DNA from: Glycomyces buryatensis
GTDB taxonomy: Bacteria; Actinomycetota; Actinomycetes; Mycobacteriales; Micromonosporaceae
Assembly: GCF_004912275.1 (NCBI RefSeq)
Contig: NZ_STGY01000001.1
Span: forward strand, 62,001 to 126,000
DNA length: 64,000 nt
Reading direction: 5' to 3'
Every line of letters begins with the position of its first letter. The stretch's first letter is position 1. Of this stretch, positions 7,923 through 13,577 are shown in pieces. A model generated the notes under the pieces. The model had not been told where the DNA came from and made no database searches. It was given only the letters and a program-made list of their open reading frames with translations. Both the position numbers and the translations under genes were made by a program.

Positions 7923-10900
7923 GTGCCCTTGGAGTTCGGGATCCTCGGTCCCCTGCAACTCACCCGGGAGAACGCGCCCGTACGCCTCCCCGGGAAGGTC
8001 CTGCCGCGCCTGGTGGCGGTGCTGCTGCTCGACGCCGGGCACGTGGTGGCGCGGTCCAGGCTGATCGACGCGATCTGGGACGAGGCCCCGCCCGCGTCCG
8101 CCGGACGCCAGGTCCAGAACACCGTCGCGGTCGCCCGCAGCCTGCTGACCGGCGGCGCCGAGATCGAGACCGTCGGCGAGGGCGGGTACCGGCTGCGGCT
8201 CCGTCCCGAGCAGCTGGACTCGCTGCGGTTCCAGCGGGCGGTGCGCATCGCGCGCGAGCAGGTCGCCGCGTTCGAACCCGAAGCGGCCCTGGCGAGTCTG
8301 CGCGAGGCCCTCGACCTGTGGCGGGGGCCGGCGCTGGCGGGGATGACCGGCCGGATCATCGAGGCGGGGGCGCTGCGCTGGGACGAGGAGCGGGCCGCCG
8401 CCGCGGAGGACCGGGCCGAGCTCGAACTCGACCTGGGCACCGGCGAACCGGTCGTCGCCGATCTGCGCGGCGTCCTGGAGCGCCACCCGTATCGGCAGCG
8501 GGCGGCCGAGCTGGTCATGACCGCGCTGCACCGCACCGGGCGCGTCCCCGAGGCCCTGGAGATCTACCGGGCCATGCACGCCCGGCTCGACGACGAGTTG
8601 GGCATCGAACCGGGGCAGCGGTTGCGCGAGCTGCACACCGCGATCCTGCGCGACGACCCGGCGCTGTCGGCCACGCCTGCGGCTCCGGCGGCGGCCCCGC
8701 GGCCTGCGAGCCTGCCCGCGCCCGCGCAGCTGCCGGCCGACAGCGTCCACTTCACCGGCCGCGCAGGGCAACTCGCGACCCTGGACGCGCTGCTCGGGCC
8801 GGGCCCGCAGGTGGCGGTCCTTTCGGGGATCGGCGGTTCGGGCAAGACCACCCTCGCGCTGCATTGGGCACACCGCTGGCGCGAACGGTTCCCCGACGGG
8901 CAGCTGTACGTGAACCTGCGCGGCTTCGACCGGGCCCCGCCGCTCTCGCCGCTGGACGCGCTCGCGGGGTTCCTGCGGGCGCTGGGCGTCCCCACCGAGG
9001 CCATACCGTCCGATGTGGATGAGGCGGCGGCGCTGCTGCGCTCCCGCCTGGCCGACACGCAGACGCTGCTCATCCTCGACAATGCCAAGAACGCGGCCCA
9101 GGTCAAGCCGCTGCTGCCGGCCACGGCCGGGTGCGCGGCCGTGGTCACCAGCCGCTCCCGGCTGCCCGAACTGGCCGCCCTCCACGACGCCCTCCAGATC
9201 ACCGTCGCCTCCCTCGACCTGGCCGACTCGGTCGAACTGCTCGAACACCTCCTCGGCACCGATCGCCTGGAGGCCGAACCGGAGGCGGCCCTCAACCTGG
9301 CCGAGCTGTGCGCGGGACTGCCGCTGGCGCTGCGCATCGTCGGCACCAACCTCGCCTCGCAGGAGGGCACCACCCTCGCCGAGGCAGCCGCCGAACTGTC
9401 CGAACACGACCGGCTCGACCACCTCGCCGTCGAGGGCGACCCCACCACCACCGTCGCCGCCGCGTTCGACCTGTCGTTCCAGAGCCTCGAACCGGAGGAG
9501 GTGCTGCTGTACCTCAACCTGGCGTTCCTGCCCGGCACCGACTTCTCCCTGGCTCTGGCCGTCGCCCTCACCAAGTGGGAACCGGCTGCGGCCGAACGCA
9601 TCCTGGACCAGCTCGTGGCCTCCCACCGCGTCGAGGAGTACCGGCCCGGCCGCTACCGCTTCCACGACCTGGTGCGCGAATACGCCCGCCGCAAGACCGA
9701 GGAGGCCTTCGACGCCGCCGCCCTCCAACGCCTCCGCGAGCAGGTCGTGGAGTGGTACGCCAAGGGCACCAGTCCGCTCCCGGTCGACGAGTACCGCAAT
9801 ATCGTCGCCACGTTCCTCGAATGGAACGGCCACCCCACCGTCTCGCGCCTGCTCACCCGCCTCATCGCCTTCGCCGACGCCGGATACCGCGAGGACGCCG
9901 GCCACCGGGGCGTGCCCGCCGACGCCGTCTACGAACTGCCCGAACTCGCCCAGGTCGCCGAGCGGGGCATCGCCACCGGAGTGCGATCCGACGAACCCAT
10001 GGACGCCGTGCGCGCCTTCGCCTTGGCCGACGCCGTCGCCTTCGCCTCCGGCGACCTGCCCGCCTCCCTCGGCTACGCCCAGAAGACCCTCGAAGTGCTC
10101 TCGCGGACCCCGCACGGCGACCGGACCGGCAAGGCCCGCAACGACCTCGCCACCACCCTCACCCAGCTCGGCCGCTACCGGGAGGCCGTCTCGATCCTCC
10201 GCGAGGCCGTCGGCGCCGCCGAACGCTCCGGCAACCGCATCGTCCAGGTCGAGGTCCTGACCTCGCTCGGAACGGTGCTGCGGCGCATGGGCATCTTCGC
10301 CGAATCCGAGACGCTCCTGCTGCGCGCCGCCGAACTCGACGCCGCGGGCGAGGCCGGCGGCGGCACCGGACCCAAATCCGCCTACCCGCTGCTGTCGCTC
10401 GCCGAGCTCTATGTCGACACCGGCCGCGTCACCGCCGCCGAAGAGCTGTGCCAGACCATCGCCGACATGCTCCACGACCACCCCTCCAAGTACTACCGGG
10501 CGCGCCTGTACTTCCGTCAGTCGGCCGTTCACCGCGCCGACGAGGACTTCGTGCGCGCCGAGGCCGCCCTCCTGCGCGGCCTCGAACTCGTCCAGGAGGT
10601 CAACTCCTGGCGCCACCAGCTCGTCTACACCTACTGGCTGGCCGAGCTGTACGTCGACACCGGCCTCCTCGACCGCGCCCGCGAAGCCCTCGAAGCGGTC
10701 GCCGGGCTCGAGCGCTACCAGACCTCCGAGACCCTCGCCGTGCGCGCCAGGGTGCTGTGCAAACTCCACGCACGGCTCGGCGACCCCGCCCGCGCGATCC
10801 GCCTCGGGCACCAGGCCGCCGACGTCTTCGCCGCCATGCCCGACCCGCTGCGCCAGGCCCGCAGCCTGCTGGCGCTGGCCGACGCCTACGCCGCCGCGGG

Positions 10901-10997
10901 CCGGGGCGCCGAGTCCGCCTCGTCCCTCGGCCAGGCGCACGGACTGTTCTCCCGCTTGGGCATCGAACCGCCGCGCCCGTCAGGTTCAGTCGTCTGA
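7923..10997 (+). CDS. AfsR/SARP family transcriptional regulator with NB-ARC and TPR domains
   Basis: 1024 residues with a GTG start. Domains in order: an OmpR-like winged helix (about 1-95), the bacterial transcriptional activation domain (about 100-245), an NB-ARC STAND ATPase beginning with the Walker A motif GIGGSGKTT near residue 305, and a C-terminal superhelix of TPR-type repeats (about 590-1010). This is the architecture of AfsR, a global activator of antibiotic genes that binds direct repeats near -35 boxes. No biosynthetic cluster lies beside it, so its targets are not evident. It may act on distant genes. The next gene downstream is another small regulator 119 bases away. Confidence 0.93.
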   Translation: MPLEFGILGPLQLTRENAPVRLPGKVLPRLVAVLLLDAGHVVARSRLIDAIWDEAPPASAGRQVQNTVAVARSLLTGGAEIETVGEGGYRLRLRPEQLDSLRFQRAVRIAREQVAAFEPEAALASLREALDLWRGPALAGMTGRIIEAGALRWDEERAAAAEDRAELELDLGTGEPVVADLRGVLERHPYRQRAAELVMTALHRTGRVPEALEIYRAMHARLDDELGIEPGQRLRELHTAILRDDPALSATPAAPAAAPRPASLPAPAQLPADSVHFTGRAGQLATLDALLGPGPQVAVLSGIGGSGKTTLALHWAHRWRERFPDGQLYVNLRGFDRAPPLSPLDALAGFLRALGVPTEAIPSDVDEAAALLRSRLADTQTLLILDNAKNAAQVKPLLPATAGCAAVVTSRSRLPELAALHDALQITVASLDLADSVELLEHLLGTDRLEAEPEAALNLAELCAGLPLALRIVGTNLASQEGTTLAEAAAELSEHDRLDHLAVEGDPTTTVAAAFDLSFQSLEPEEVLLYLNLAFLPGTDFSLALAVALTKWEPAAAERILDQLVASHRVEEYRPGRYRFHDLVREYARRKTEEAFDAAALQRLREQVVEWYAKGTSPLPVDEYRNIVATFLEWNGHPTVSRLLTRLIAFADAGYREDAGHRGVPADAVYELPELAQVAERGIATGVRSDEPMDAVRAFALADAVAFASGDLPASLGYAQKTLEVLSRTPHGDRTGKARNDLATTLTQLGRYREAVSILREAVGAAERSGNRIVQVEVLTSLGTVLRRMGIFAESETLLLRAAELDAAGEAGGGTGPKSAYPLLSLAELYVDTGRVTAAEELCQTIADMLHDHPSKYYRARLYFRQSAVHRADEDFVRAEAALLRGLELVQEVNSWRHQLVYTYWLAELYVDTGLLDRAREALEAVAGLERYQTSETLAVRARVLCKLHARLGDPARAIRLGHQAADVFAAMPDPLRQARSLLALADAYAAAGRGAESASSLGQAHGLFSRLGIEPPRPSGSVV

Positions 10998-11115
10998 CCC
11001 GGGGCATTCAGCAGGGGATCACCAGATCGGGATGCCCGCGGGGGGATTTCCTACCGAGAATCCCGTAGTCGCGTTGACCTTCCGTAATGTCGCACCTACC
11101 CGTCATCATGAATCG

Positions 11116-11946
11116 ATGGCGAATGAAAAGTTCTTGCAGCGCGAACTCGCCCGGACTCTCATCAAATACCGAGAGTTGAAGGGCCTCAGCAAAGACGAGG
11201 CGATCTGGTTCCTCGGCACCTCGAAGGACATCCTCAACAGCTACGAGAGCGGCAAGCTCCAATTCGTGGAGCCCGCGATCATTGCGAGCTGGCTCGCCGA
11301 TTACGGTGCGCCGCAGGCGGTCGTCGACGACGCGAAGGCCAAGGCGAAGTGGATTCGCCAAGGAAACCCGTCCAACTGGCAGGAGTCGGCGCCGGAAGGC
11401 TTCGCGCAGTTCACGGAGATCGAGCTGCTGGCCGCGACCATCGACATCTACGAGGCCGCCTACGTGACCGGCATCCTCCAGACCTTCGCCTACGCCGCAG
11501 CGGTGCTGGCGACCAACCCGAACCTCACCGACGAGCAGCGCCGGACCGCTCTCAGCTTCCGAATGCAGCGTCAGGTAGCGGTGTTCGAGCGGCCCGGCGG
11601 ACCGCCGCGAATGCGGGTCATCCTCCCCGAAGACGCGCTCACGATCTTCAAGGGAACCGAGATCTACGACGAACAGCTCGCGCACCTCACGAAGCTGAAC
11701 CGACTCGCCCAGGTCGAGATCTTCATCGTGCCCAGTGGCCAGATCCATGCTTCGCGCGGAAGGTCATACGAGATCATGGCCTTCGTGGACGAGAAGGACC
11801 CCGAGGTGGTCTACCAGGAGGACATCTTCGGAGGGCGCTACGAGGCCAAACAGGGGAGGGTCGTCCAGTGTCGTAAGCTTTTCTCTGCCACACTCCCGGT
11901 GGTTCTCAGGTACGAAGAGTGGAGAGCATCAGATGCTGACCAGTGA
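11116..11946 (+). CDS. helix-turn-helix DUF5753 regulator (WhiJ-like)
   Basis: 276 residues from the ATG at 11116. An Xre-type helix-turn-helix occupies about residues 8-65 (LARTLIKYRELKGLSKDEA and SYESGKLQF). The rest is the DUF5753 ligand-like domain, recognised by YVTGILQTFAYA near residue 115 and the C-terminal RYEAKQGRVVQ region. In streptomycetes such proteins pair with small DUF397 proteins (the WhiJ and AbaA-like systems) and affect sporulation and antibiotic production. Here the DUF397 gene starts inside its last codons, overlapping by 14 bases, so the two are translated together. Confidence 0.9.
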   Translation: MANEKFLQRELARTLIKYRELKGLSKDEAIWFLGTSKDILNSYESGKLQFVEPAIIASWLADYGAPQAVVDDAKAKAKWIRQGNPSNWQESAPEGFAQFTEIELLAATIDIYEAAYVTGILQTFAYAAAVLATNPNLTDEQRRTALSFRMQRQVAVFERPGGPPRMRVILPEDALTIFKGTEIYDEQLAHLTKLNRLAQVEIFIVPSGQIHASRGRSYEIMAFVDEKDPEVVYQEDIFGGRYEAKQGRVVQCRKLFSATLPVVLRYEEWRASDADQ

Positions 11947-12319
11947 GTGGAAGAAGTCCTCCCGCAGCGGCAACGAGGGCGGCAACTGTGTCGAGGCGCG
12001 GTTCCTCTCAAGTGAGTGGAAGAAGTCCTCCCGCAGCGGCAACGAGGGCGGCAACTGTGTCGAGGCGCGGTTCCTCTCAAGTGAGTGGAAGAAGTCCTCC
12101 CGCAGCGGCAACGAGGGCGGCAACTGTGTCGAGGCGCGGTTCCTCTCAAGTGAGTGGAAGAAGTCCTCCCGCAGCGGCAACGAGGGCGGCCAGTGTGTCG
12201 AGGCGCGGGCGCTCGACAACGTGGTCCAGGTCCGGGACACGAAGCTCGGGAACGCCTCGCCGATCCTCGACGCCTCCCCCGCCGACTGGCGCAGCTTCCT
12301 CTCCGCCGCCGCGAAGTAG
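11933..12319 (+). CDS. DUF397 protein with fourfold tandem repeat of its N-terminal motif
   Basis: 128 residues from the ATG at 11933, about twice the usual DUF397 length of 60-70. The family core W-KSSRSGNEGGNCVEAR, normally present once, occurs four times with a 23-residue period. A single normal C-terminal half follows (VVQVRDTKLG, then SPADWRSFLSAA). The first three units are identical in DNA. The protein probably partners the DUF5753 regulator encoded just upstream. Whether the extra motifs are functional or a recent replication slip is not known. If the extra 207 bases were removed, a normal 59-residue DUF397 protein would remain. Confidence 0.9.
   Translation: MLTSEWKKSSRSGNEGGNCVEARFLSSEWKKSSRSGNEGGNCVEARFLSSEWKKSSRSGNEGGNCVEARFLSSEWKKSSRSGNEGGQCVEARALDNVVQVRDTKLGNASPILDASPADWRSFLSAAAK
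11942..12207 (+). repeat. 69-bp tandem repeat, four units, inside the DUF397 gene
   Basis: Units start at 11942, 12011, 12080 and 12149. Units 1-3 are identical over all 69 bases. Unit 4 matches for its first 42 bases, then changes AAC to CAG and diverges after about 58 bases. The period is a multiple of three, so the frame is kept. Confidence 0.97.
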
Positions 12320-12351
12320 CGACCTTCCATAACCTTCGGCGACCAACGCCG

Positions 12352-12380
12352 AAATGCCCCGGCCTGCGGCCGGGGCATTT
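12352..12380. terminator. bidirectional terminator between DUF397 and MFS genes
   Basis: A perfect 13-bp stem, AAATGCCCCGGCC at 12352-12364 against GGCCGGGGCATTT at 12368-12380, with loop TGC. It lies between two convergent genes and has A and T ends suited to both directions. Confidence 0.9.
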
Positions 12381-12392
12381 CCGTGCGCTGCA

Positions 12393-13577
12393 TCAGTGGG
12401 CTAGGACCAATTCACGGGGCGCCTCGACCGGGGCCTCGCGGACCGCCTTCGCCAACGAGAAGGACAGGACCAGACCGGCCAGCGCCAAAGCGGCGCCGAT
12501 CAGCATCGGCGCGGTCAGGCCGAAGCCGGCACCGAGGACGAGGCCGCCGAGCCAAGCGCCGTTCGCGTTGGCCAGGTTGAACGCCGAGTGGTGCAGCGAG
12601 GAGGCCAGCGACGGCGCGTCCTGGGCGCTGTCGAGCAGCATCCGGGCCAGGATCGGGCTGACCGCCGAGGACGCGAACGCCATCGCGAACACGCACAGCA
12701 CCGCCATGACCGGCGACGCCACCGTGAAGTACATGACCAGCAAGATCACCGCGATGGCCGCGAAGCAGGTGTACATACCGGAGACGGGGCGGCGGTCGGC
12801 GAGCTGGCCGCCCGCGCCGTTGCCCGCAGTCAGGCCGACGCCGAAGGCCACCAGGGCAATCGCGACACCGGCGGAGCCGAACCCGGTCACGCCCTCCAGC
12901 AGCGGCGTCAGGTAGGTGTAGCAGGCGAACATGCCGCCGAAGCCGACCATGCCGGTGACGAGGGTGAGGACGACCCGCTTGCTGTTGAGCGCCCGGACCT
13001 CCGCGGCCGGGTTCGACTGCGGGATCGCGCCGCGGGTGTCGGGGACGGTGGCCGCGACGGCGAGCATGGTGATCACGCCGATCACGGCGATGGCGACGAA
13101 CACCAGGCGCCAGCTGACCTGGTCGACCACGAAGGCGCTCAACGGGACCCCGACGACGGTGGCGACCGTGAGACCGAAGAACACGGTCGCGACCGCGCGG
13201 GCGCGCCGTTCGAACGGGACGAGGCTAGAACCGACCACCGCGGCGACCCCGAAATAGGCGCCGTGGGGGAGCCCGGCGATGAACCGGGAGGCCAGCAGCA
13301 CCTCGAAGTTCGGGGCGAGGGCGGTGGCCAGGTTCGCGGCCGCGAAGAAGGCCATGAAGCCGATCAGGAGCGGCTTGCGGGGGATCTTCGTGGTGGCGAG
13401 AGTGAGCAGCGGCGCGCCGACGACGACACCGACGGCGTAGAAGGTCACCAGGTGCCCGGCGGACTCCAGCGACACGCGTTCGGAGGCGGCGATGGTGGGG
13501 AGGATGCCCATGACGACGAATTCGGCCGTCCCGATGGCGAAGGCGCCGATGGACATGGCGAACAAAGGCAGACGCAT
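12393..13577 (-). CDS. MFS transporter, DHA1 drug-efflux type
   Basis: 394 residues with 12 hydrophobic segments, the normal MFS size. The N-terminus FAIGTAEFVVMGILP and the loop GAPLLTLATTKIPRK match the AraJ/YdhP/Cmx branch of the DHA1 group, proton-driven exporters of drugs or sugars. The substrate is unknown. It is encoded alone on the minus strand with a strong shared terminator just after its stop codon. No regulator lies adjacent. Confidence 0.88.
   Translation of the reverse strand: MRLPLFAMSIGAFAIGTAEFVVMGILPTIAASERVSLESAGHLVTFYAVGVVVGAPLLTLATTKIPRKPLLIGFMAFFAAANLATALAPNFEVLLASRFIAGLPHGAYFGVAAVVGSSLVPFERRARAVATVFFGLTVATVVGVPLSAFVVDQVSWRLVFVAIAVIGVITMLAVAATVPDTRGAIPQSNPAAEVRALNSKRVVLTLVTGMVGFGGMFACYTYLTPLLEGVTGFGSAGVAIALVAFGVGLTAGNGAGGQLADRRPVSGMYTCFAAIAVILLVMYFTVASPVMAVLCVFAMAFASSAVSPILARMLLDSAQDAPSLASSLHHSAFNLANANGAWLGGLVLGAGFGLTAPMLIGAALALAGLVLSFSLAKAVREAPVEAPRELVLAH

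Follow-up and report, generated by a model that had tools for sequence, protein, structure and literature searches.

A DUF397 gene of Glycomyces buryatensis with an in-frame array of N-terminal half-domain units in front of its complete domain

The closest described relatives of the protein considered here are BldB and its paralogues, which make up the DUF397/BldB family (PF04149). In passages of PMC10294661, BldB is reported not to bind DNA, and a two-hybrid assay is said to show hetero-oligomers of BldB with most of its paralogues; most of these paralogues, including the 11 of S. venezuelae, are said to consist of the DUF397 domain alone and to have 100 aa or less. Passages of two further papers describe DUF397 genes placed in tandem behind a single regulator and propose that their products form multimers (PMC8269248, PMC7159879), and in the latter a CxE motif in strand 2 and an RDS motif at strand 3 serve as criteria for DUF397. 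Tandem DUF397 genes are described in the full-text passages of the DUF397/BldB literature, and no half-domain repeats within one protein were found in those passages. A legend in PMC4239341 mentions internally duplicated bldB genes, which from its wording we take to mean local gene duplication.

The window, i.e. the whole stretch of 64,000 nucleotides of contig NZ_STGY01000001.1 that was analysed, contains a regulator gene and a DUF397 gene with the following features (window coordinates).

11116 to 11946, forward strand: upstream partner regulator of 276 aa with a weak match to an XRE-type HTH (HTH_31) and a DUF5753 domain (PF19054)
11933 to 12319, forward strand: DUF397 gene of 128 aa, its complete domain preceded by three extra half-domains of the N-terminal kind; four stretches match PF04149 (123.6 bits)
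11942 to 12010, forward strand: half-domain unit 1, 69 bp, from Tandem Repeats Finder and unit comparison
12011 to 12079, forward strand: half-domain unit 2, 69/69 identical to unit 1
12080 to 12148, forward strand: half-domain unit 3, 69/69 identical to unit 1
12149 to 12217, forward strand: unit 4, the first half of the complete DUF397 domain, 61/69 against units 1-3
12152 to 12310, forward strand: the sole complete DUF397 domain, residues 74-126, PF04149 profile positions 2-54
12351 to 12381, no strand assigned: possible two-way terminator, a perfect inverted repeat with 14-bp arms and a loop of 3 nt, located between the DUF397 gene and a convergent MFS-like gene

The window protein resembles the DUF397/BldB family in its complete domain, its CVE and RDTK motifs, its small size and the position of its gene directly behind a regulator, but it has 128 aa and carries three extra N-terminal half-domains. 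With the Streptomyces XRE-DUF397 pairs (Scr1/Scr2 and WhiJ9/BldB9) it shares the order of a regulator gene followed by a DUF397 gene and the presence of DUF5753 in the partner; whereas the passages of PMC8269248 describe tandem DUF397 genes, here units are amplified inside the protein. The frame is open from the ATG at 11933 to the stop codon at 12317-12319, and its PF04149 score is far above the curated cut-off of 24 bits. A DUF5753 partner had been proposed in the first-pass annotation, and the upstream gene indeed matches PF19054 with 98.3 bits against a cut-off of 23.4, while its HTH_31 match (24.3 bits) is under the cut-off of 27. The two genes overlap by 14 bp and the stop codon of the partner (11944-11946) sits within repeat unit 1, in a different frame.

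Around the pair, a frame that looks like a SARP/AfsR-like regulator (7923-10997, 1024 aa) lies immediately upstream and, downstream, a convergent frame at 12393-13577 was assigned as MFS-like, also by its look. The inverted repeat at 12351-12381 has a short A run on its left and a T run on its right, and a consensus terminator scan did not call it; bidirectional ends are reported for 10 of 24 XRE-DUF397 pairs of S. clavuligerus in the passages of PMC8269248. Upstream of the regulator start, at 11080-11118, the block TTCCGT..TGTC.CACC and the bases up to the ATG are kept in four of six regulator relatives, these four being the ones whose start was locatable by motif. This conserved block is a candidate promoter or operator.

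The 5' end of the DUF397 gene is an in-frame array (11942-12217) of three identical 69-bp units and a fourth unit. When run on the whole window, Tandem Repeats Finder reported the array at 11942-12208 with period 69, 3.9 copies and a score of 520, the runner-up among its nine rows scoring 86. At an offset of 69 bp the longest exact self-match is 180 nt, against a maximum of 21 nt in the rest of the window at offsets of 20-499. The fourth unit differs from units 1-3 in 8 of 69 bases, six of which fall within the last nine, and is 52/54 identical to them in the conserved core. The expansion is therefore really present in the sequence and in frame and, because the DNA of units 1-3 is identical, it looks recent. 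In these respects the initial description, of three identical in-frame units of very recent origin, is supported. The fourth unit that it noted also exists and is in frame, but it is not partial, being the first half of the sole complete DUF397 domain of the protein.

What has been amplified is not the whole DUF397 core, as was first thought, but the N-terminal half alone: the extra units match PF04149 profile positions 2-23. Duplication of the whole domain is ruled out, since the repeat is limited to profile positions of about 2-23 and the C-terminal half is single. Nor are the units separate small genes, as the frame is continuous and the start codon at 11933 and the GGAGAG preceding it lie outside the unit. 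CVE is present in all four units, whereas RDTK occurs a single time, with Thr replacing Ser. A DUF397 domain is expected to have four strands and a C-terminal helix. The predicted model of the last domain shows strands at 89-94, 97-102 and 111-114, another of just two residues (76-77) and a helix covering 116-127, with a block pLDDT of 59-78; the whole model has 49.3, and residues 1-71 have a pLDDT below 50 in both structure predictions. A sequence search of PDB chains with the window protein, at E up to 1, gave no match.

Extra half-units are common in this genome, which has 49 matches to PF04149, 14 of them half-domains (3 in the window protein and 11 elsewhere). Among the best 30 of the 49 matches there are 30 distinct DUF397 frames, 17 with one unit, 12 with two and one, that of the window, with four. 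The claim that ordinary DUF397 proteins carry the motif once is thus wrong as a rule, as 13 of these 30 frames have more than one unit. A wider sample, whose selection favoured multi-unit proteins, gave 152 distinct frames, of which 97 were multi-unit: 68 had two units, 27 three and 2 four, against 55 with a single one. This sample was drawn from overlapping sets of genomes of the genus (22), family (300), class (394) and order (397), together with named genomes and viral contigs. In the multi-genome searches 12-16 first-look candidates were scored per genome and at most 30 loci were taken per search; hit lists were limited by E-value and loci were chosen by their score to a three- or four-unit query. 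The unit frequencies outside this genome are therefore not population frequencies, and four-unit proteins may be missed. Units were counted by HMM, which replaced a regular-expression count (18 proteins) that missed many proteins; the HMM count can itself miss a degenerate unit, as in L185, which it scored as two units and which looks like three by eye.

The two- and three-unit proteins, such as L004 of this genome and L087 and L125 of another genus, have the same plan of half-units followed by a full domain, although the DNA of their units is less similar than in the window. Ranked by DNA identity of adjacent units, the window's array comes first with 54/54, followed by frames with 52, 52, 51 and 50 (median 43), among the 92 of 97 multi-unit frames that could be ranked, the unit expression not fitting the other five. 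Viral loci gave 38 distinct DUF397 frames, 8 with two units, 2 with three and 1 with four. The window protein itself had no match in plasmids and phages at 1e-5, where low-complexity filtering may hide matches. Judging from these comparisons, the window array looks less like a novel type of system than like the extreme of a common repeat whose number of units changes. At another locus of the genus (L069), three DUF397 genes, one with a single unit and two with two units each, stand behind one regulator. The six loci with species names that the protein recovered are all from Glycomyces, and that of G. amatae (L078) codes for a DUF397 protein also encoded by genome G003 of the genus.

The same survey bears on whether the copy number is an assembly error and the real gene has two or three units. 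The genome is a draft of 87 contigs, and an exact self-match of 180 nt means that reads of about 250 bp or more would be needed to count the copies. Exact copies are usually collapsed by assemblers and not added, which counts against such an error. Moreover, three-unit DUF397 proteins were found in other genera and in genomes whose listing gives one or two contigs (G069, G110, G529, G675 and G135), and a second four-unit protein, with diverged units, lies on a 117-kb viral contig (L169, 1513-1833). We regard an assembly error as quite unlikely.

Across the family the half-units show signs of turnover. In 45 of 50 non-redundant proteins the last two units agree in the length of the loop before the conserved Cys, where shuffling gave 22.8 (sd 2.7) such proteins; none of 5000 shuffles, which treat proteins as independent, reached 45, and 5 of 81 multi-unit proteins had been dropped because the unit expression did not fit them. 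Loop identity between units was likewise 0.66 against 0.37. Such resemblance of the units in one protein is explained equally well by repeated new duplications and by exchange between units. Another genus of the same family offers a comparison of one DUF397 gene between species: the two-unit form is present in G079, G097 and G121 (loci L127, L128 and L129) and the three-unit form in G110 and G135 (L087 and L125), with a clean 60-bp gap at the gene between the two- and three-unit species. From upstream into the gene, the four other species match the DNA of G110 at 88-92% identity over 1.5-1.9 kb; on the far downstream side of the gene a good match to G110 is seen in G121 alone. Since the same gene has two or three units in different species, the number of half-units does, on these alignments, change in evolution between species, and both gain and loss are compatible with the data.

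Constraint on the units was compared in the two-unit relatives (13 proteins of 12 loci, picked out by a motif expression). The pN/pS value, uncorrected and summed over related pairs, is 0.25 for the extra half, 0.21 for the first half of the full domain and 0.29 for the tail. Since constraint on the extra half-unit is similar to that on the remainder of the domain, the single extra half-unit of these relatives is probably not a passenger.

The four-unit form itself is probably derived. In a tree of 17 partner regulators of the genus, that of the window clades with five others (support 1.00), all of which adjoin two-unit proteins, and it is from these five closest regulators that the derived state is argued. 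The next branch is also two-unit, its placement having a support of just 0.62. Overall the neighbours of the 17 regulators are two-unit proteins in 11 cases, one-unit in 4, a mixture in 1 and the four-unit protein in the window. In 11 hand-picked two-unit relatives, which exclude L055 and L089 (two-unit, other spacing), the units are spaced by 69 bp in three (L004, L032 and L054) and by 54 bp in eight; L004 is a paralogue in the same genome. As 69 bp is already the unit spacing in some two-unit relatives, the frame would be inherited: the spacing of the ancestral units already came to whole codons, so that the new units stay in frame. The period that is a multiple of three, to which attention had been drawn in the first-pass annotation, does keep the array in frame, but it needs no special explanation. 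Compared with the two half-units of each relative, the last half-unit of the window is nearer to the first in 9 of these 11, by a margin of 1-7 bases of 54, and the other two run against this pattern of overwriting. No close sister strain was found: the neighbouring MFS protein had matches in 19 of 21 other genomes of the genus (E up to 1e-120), at most 76% identical, and the partner regulator was at most 66% identical among matches at E up to 1e-40.

These results can be read in different ways. The added units might be a recent and nearly neutral slippage polymorphism, in which the function lies with the full C-terminal domain, the two newest units being tolerated as passengers and due to disappear again. 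Units 1-3 are identical and so give no sign of shaping by selection, the five nearest relatives are two-unit and the extra units have no confident predicted fold, all of which agree with this explanation. It accounts less well for the single extra half-unit of the relatives, whose pN/pS is as low as that of the full domain, and for the wide distribution of extra units, by which the first extra unit at least looks functional. We consider neutral slippage a real possibility, though not a probable one.

A further explanation is that the array is a contingency locus for tuning, with a unit number that shifts frequently from cell to cell and determines how strongly the protein pairs with the regulator. 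Contingency loci can have exact in-frame coding repeats that are able to gain or lose units, and the window array resembles them in its exact in-frame DNA repeats, which could change in number; it differs in its few and long units and in its period, since 69 bp is a multiple of three and does not allow on/off switching through frame shifts. Besides the perfect repeats, the unequal unit number of one gene in congeneric species and the family-wide signs of unit turnover speak for a contingency locus, but the difference seen is between species only, and a high-rate locus would be expected to have more than four copies of a 69-bp unit. Such a locus seems very improbable here. It is doubtful, too, that the half-domains in general form a fast-turnover valency array, by which actinomycetes would tune many XRE-DUF397 circuits through adding and removing units, and that the copy number in the window may still vary between cells.

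The reading that we favour, and to which we give an even chance, is that the protein is the DUF397 partner of a WhiJ-like XRE-DUF5753 regulator and has itself grown from two to four units, the half-units being a valency module. By parsimony on the tree, the ancestor would have been a two-unit protein with one extra N-terminal half-domain and one full domain. Unequal exchange or replication slippage between half-units 69 bp apart may have raised the number from two to four, and the first half of the full domain may have been overwritten during the exchange that made the new copies. Each half-unit would correspond to the first two strands of a DUF397 domain, with the conserved Trp, Lys-Ser-Ser and Cys-Val-Glu. 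With extra half-units, one edge or interface could then be presented several times, either to the regulator or to other DUF397 chains, and this larger number of interfaces per chain might alter both how the protein oligomerizes and how strongly the regulator is controlled. Half-domain repeats in one chain would in this respect be a parallel to tandem DUF397 genes behind one regulator. That the N-terminal half occurs in one to four copies, alike within proteins and differing in number between species, suggests that it makes contacts of its own.

Actinomycetes have many DUF397 proteins, which regulate development and antibiotic production and are poorly understood. The natural variants with one, two, three and four units provide a ready test of whether DUF397 works by multimers.
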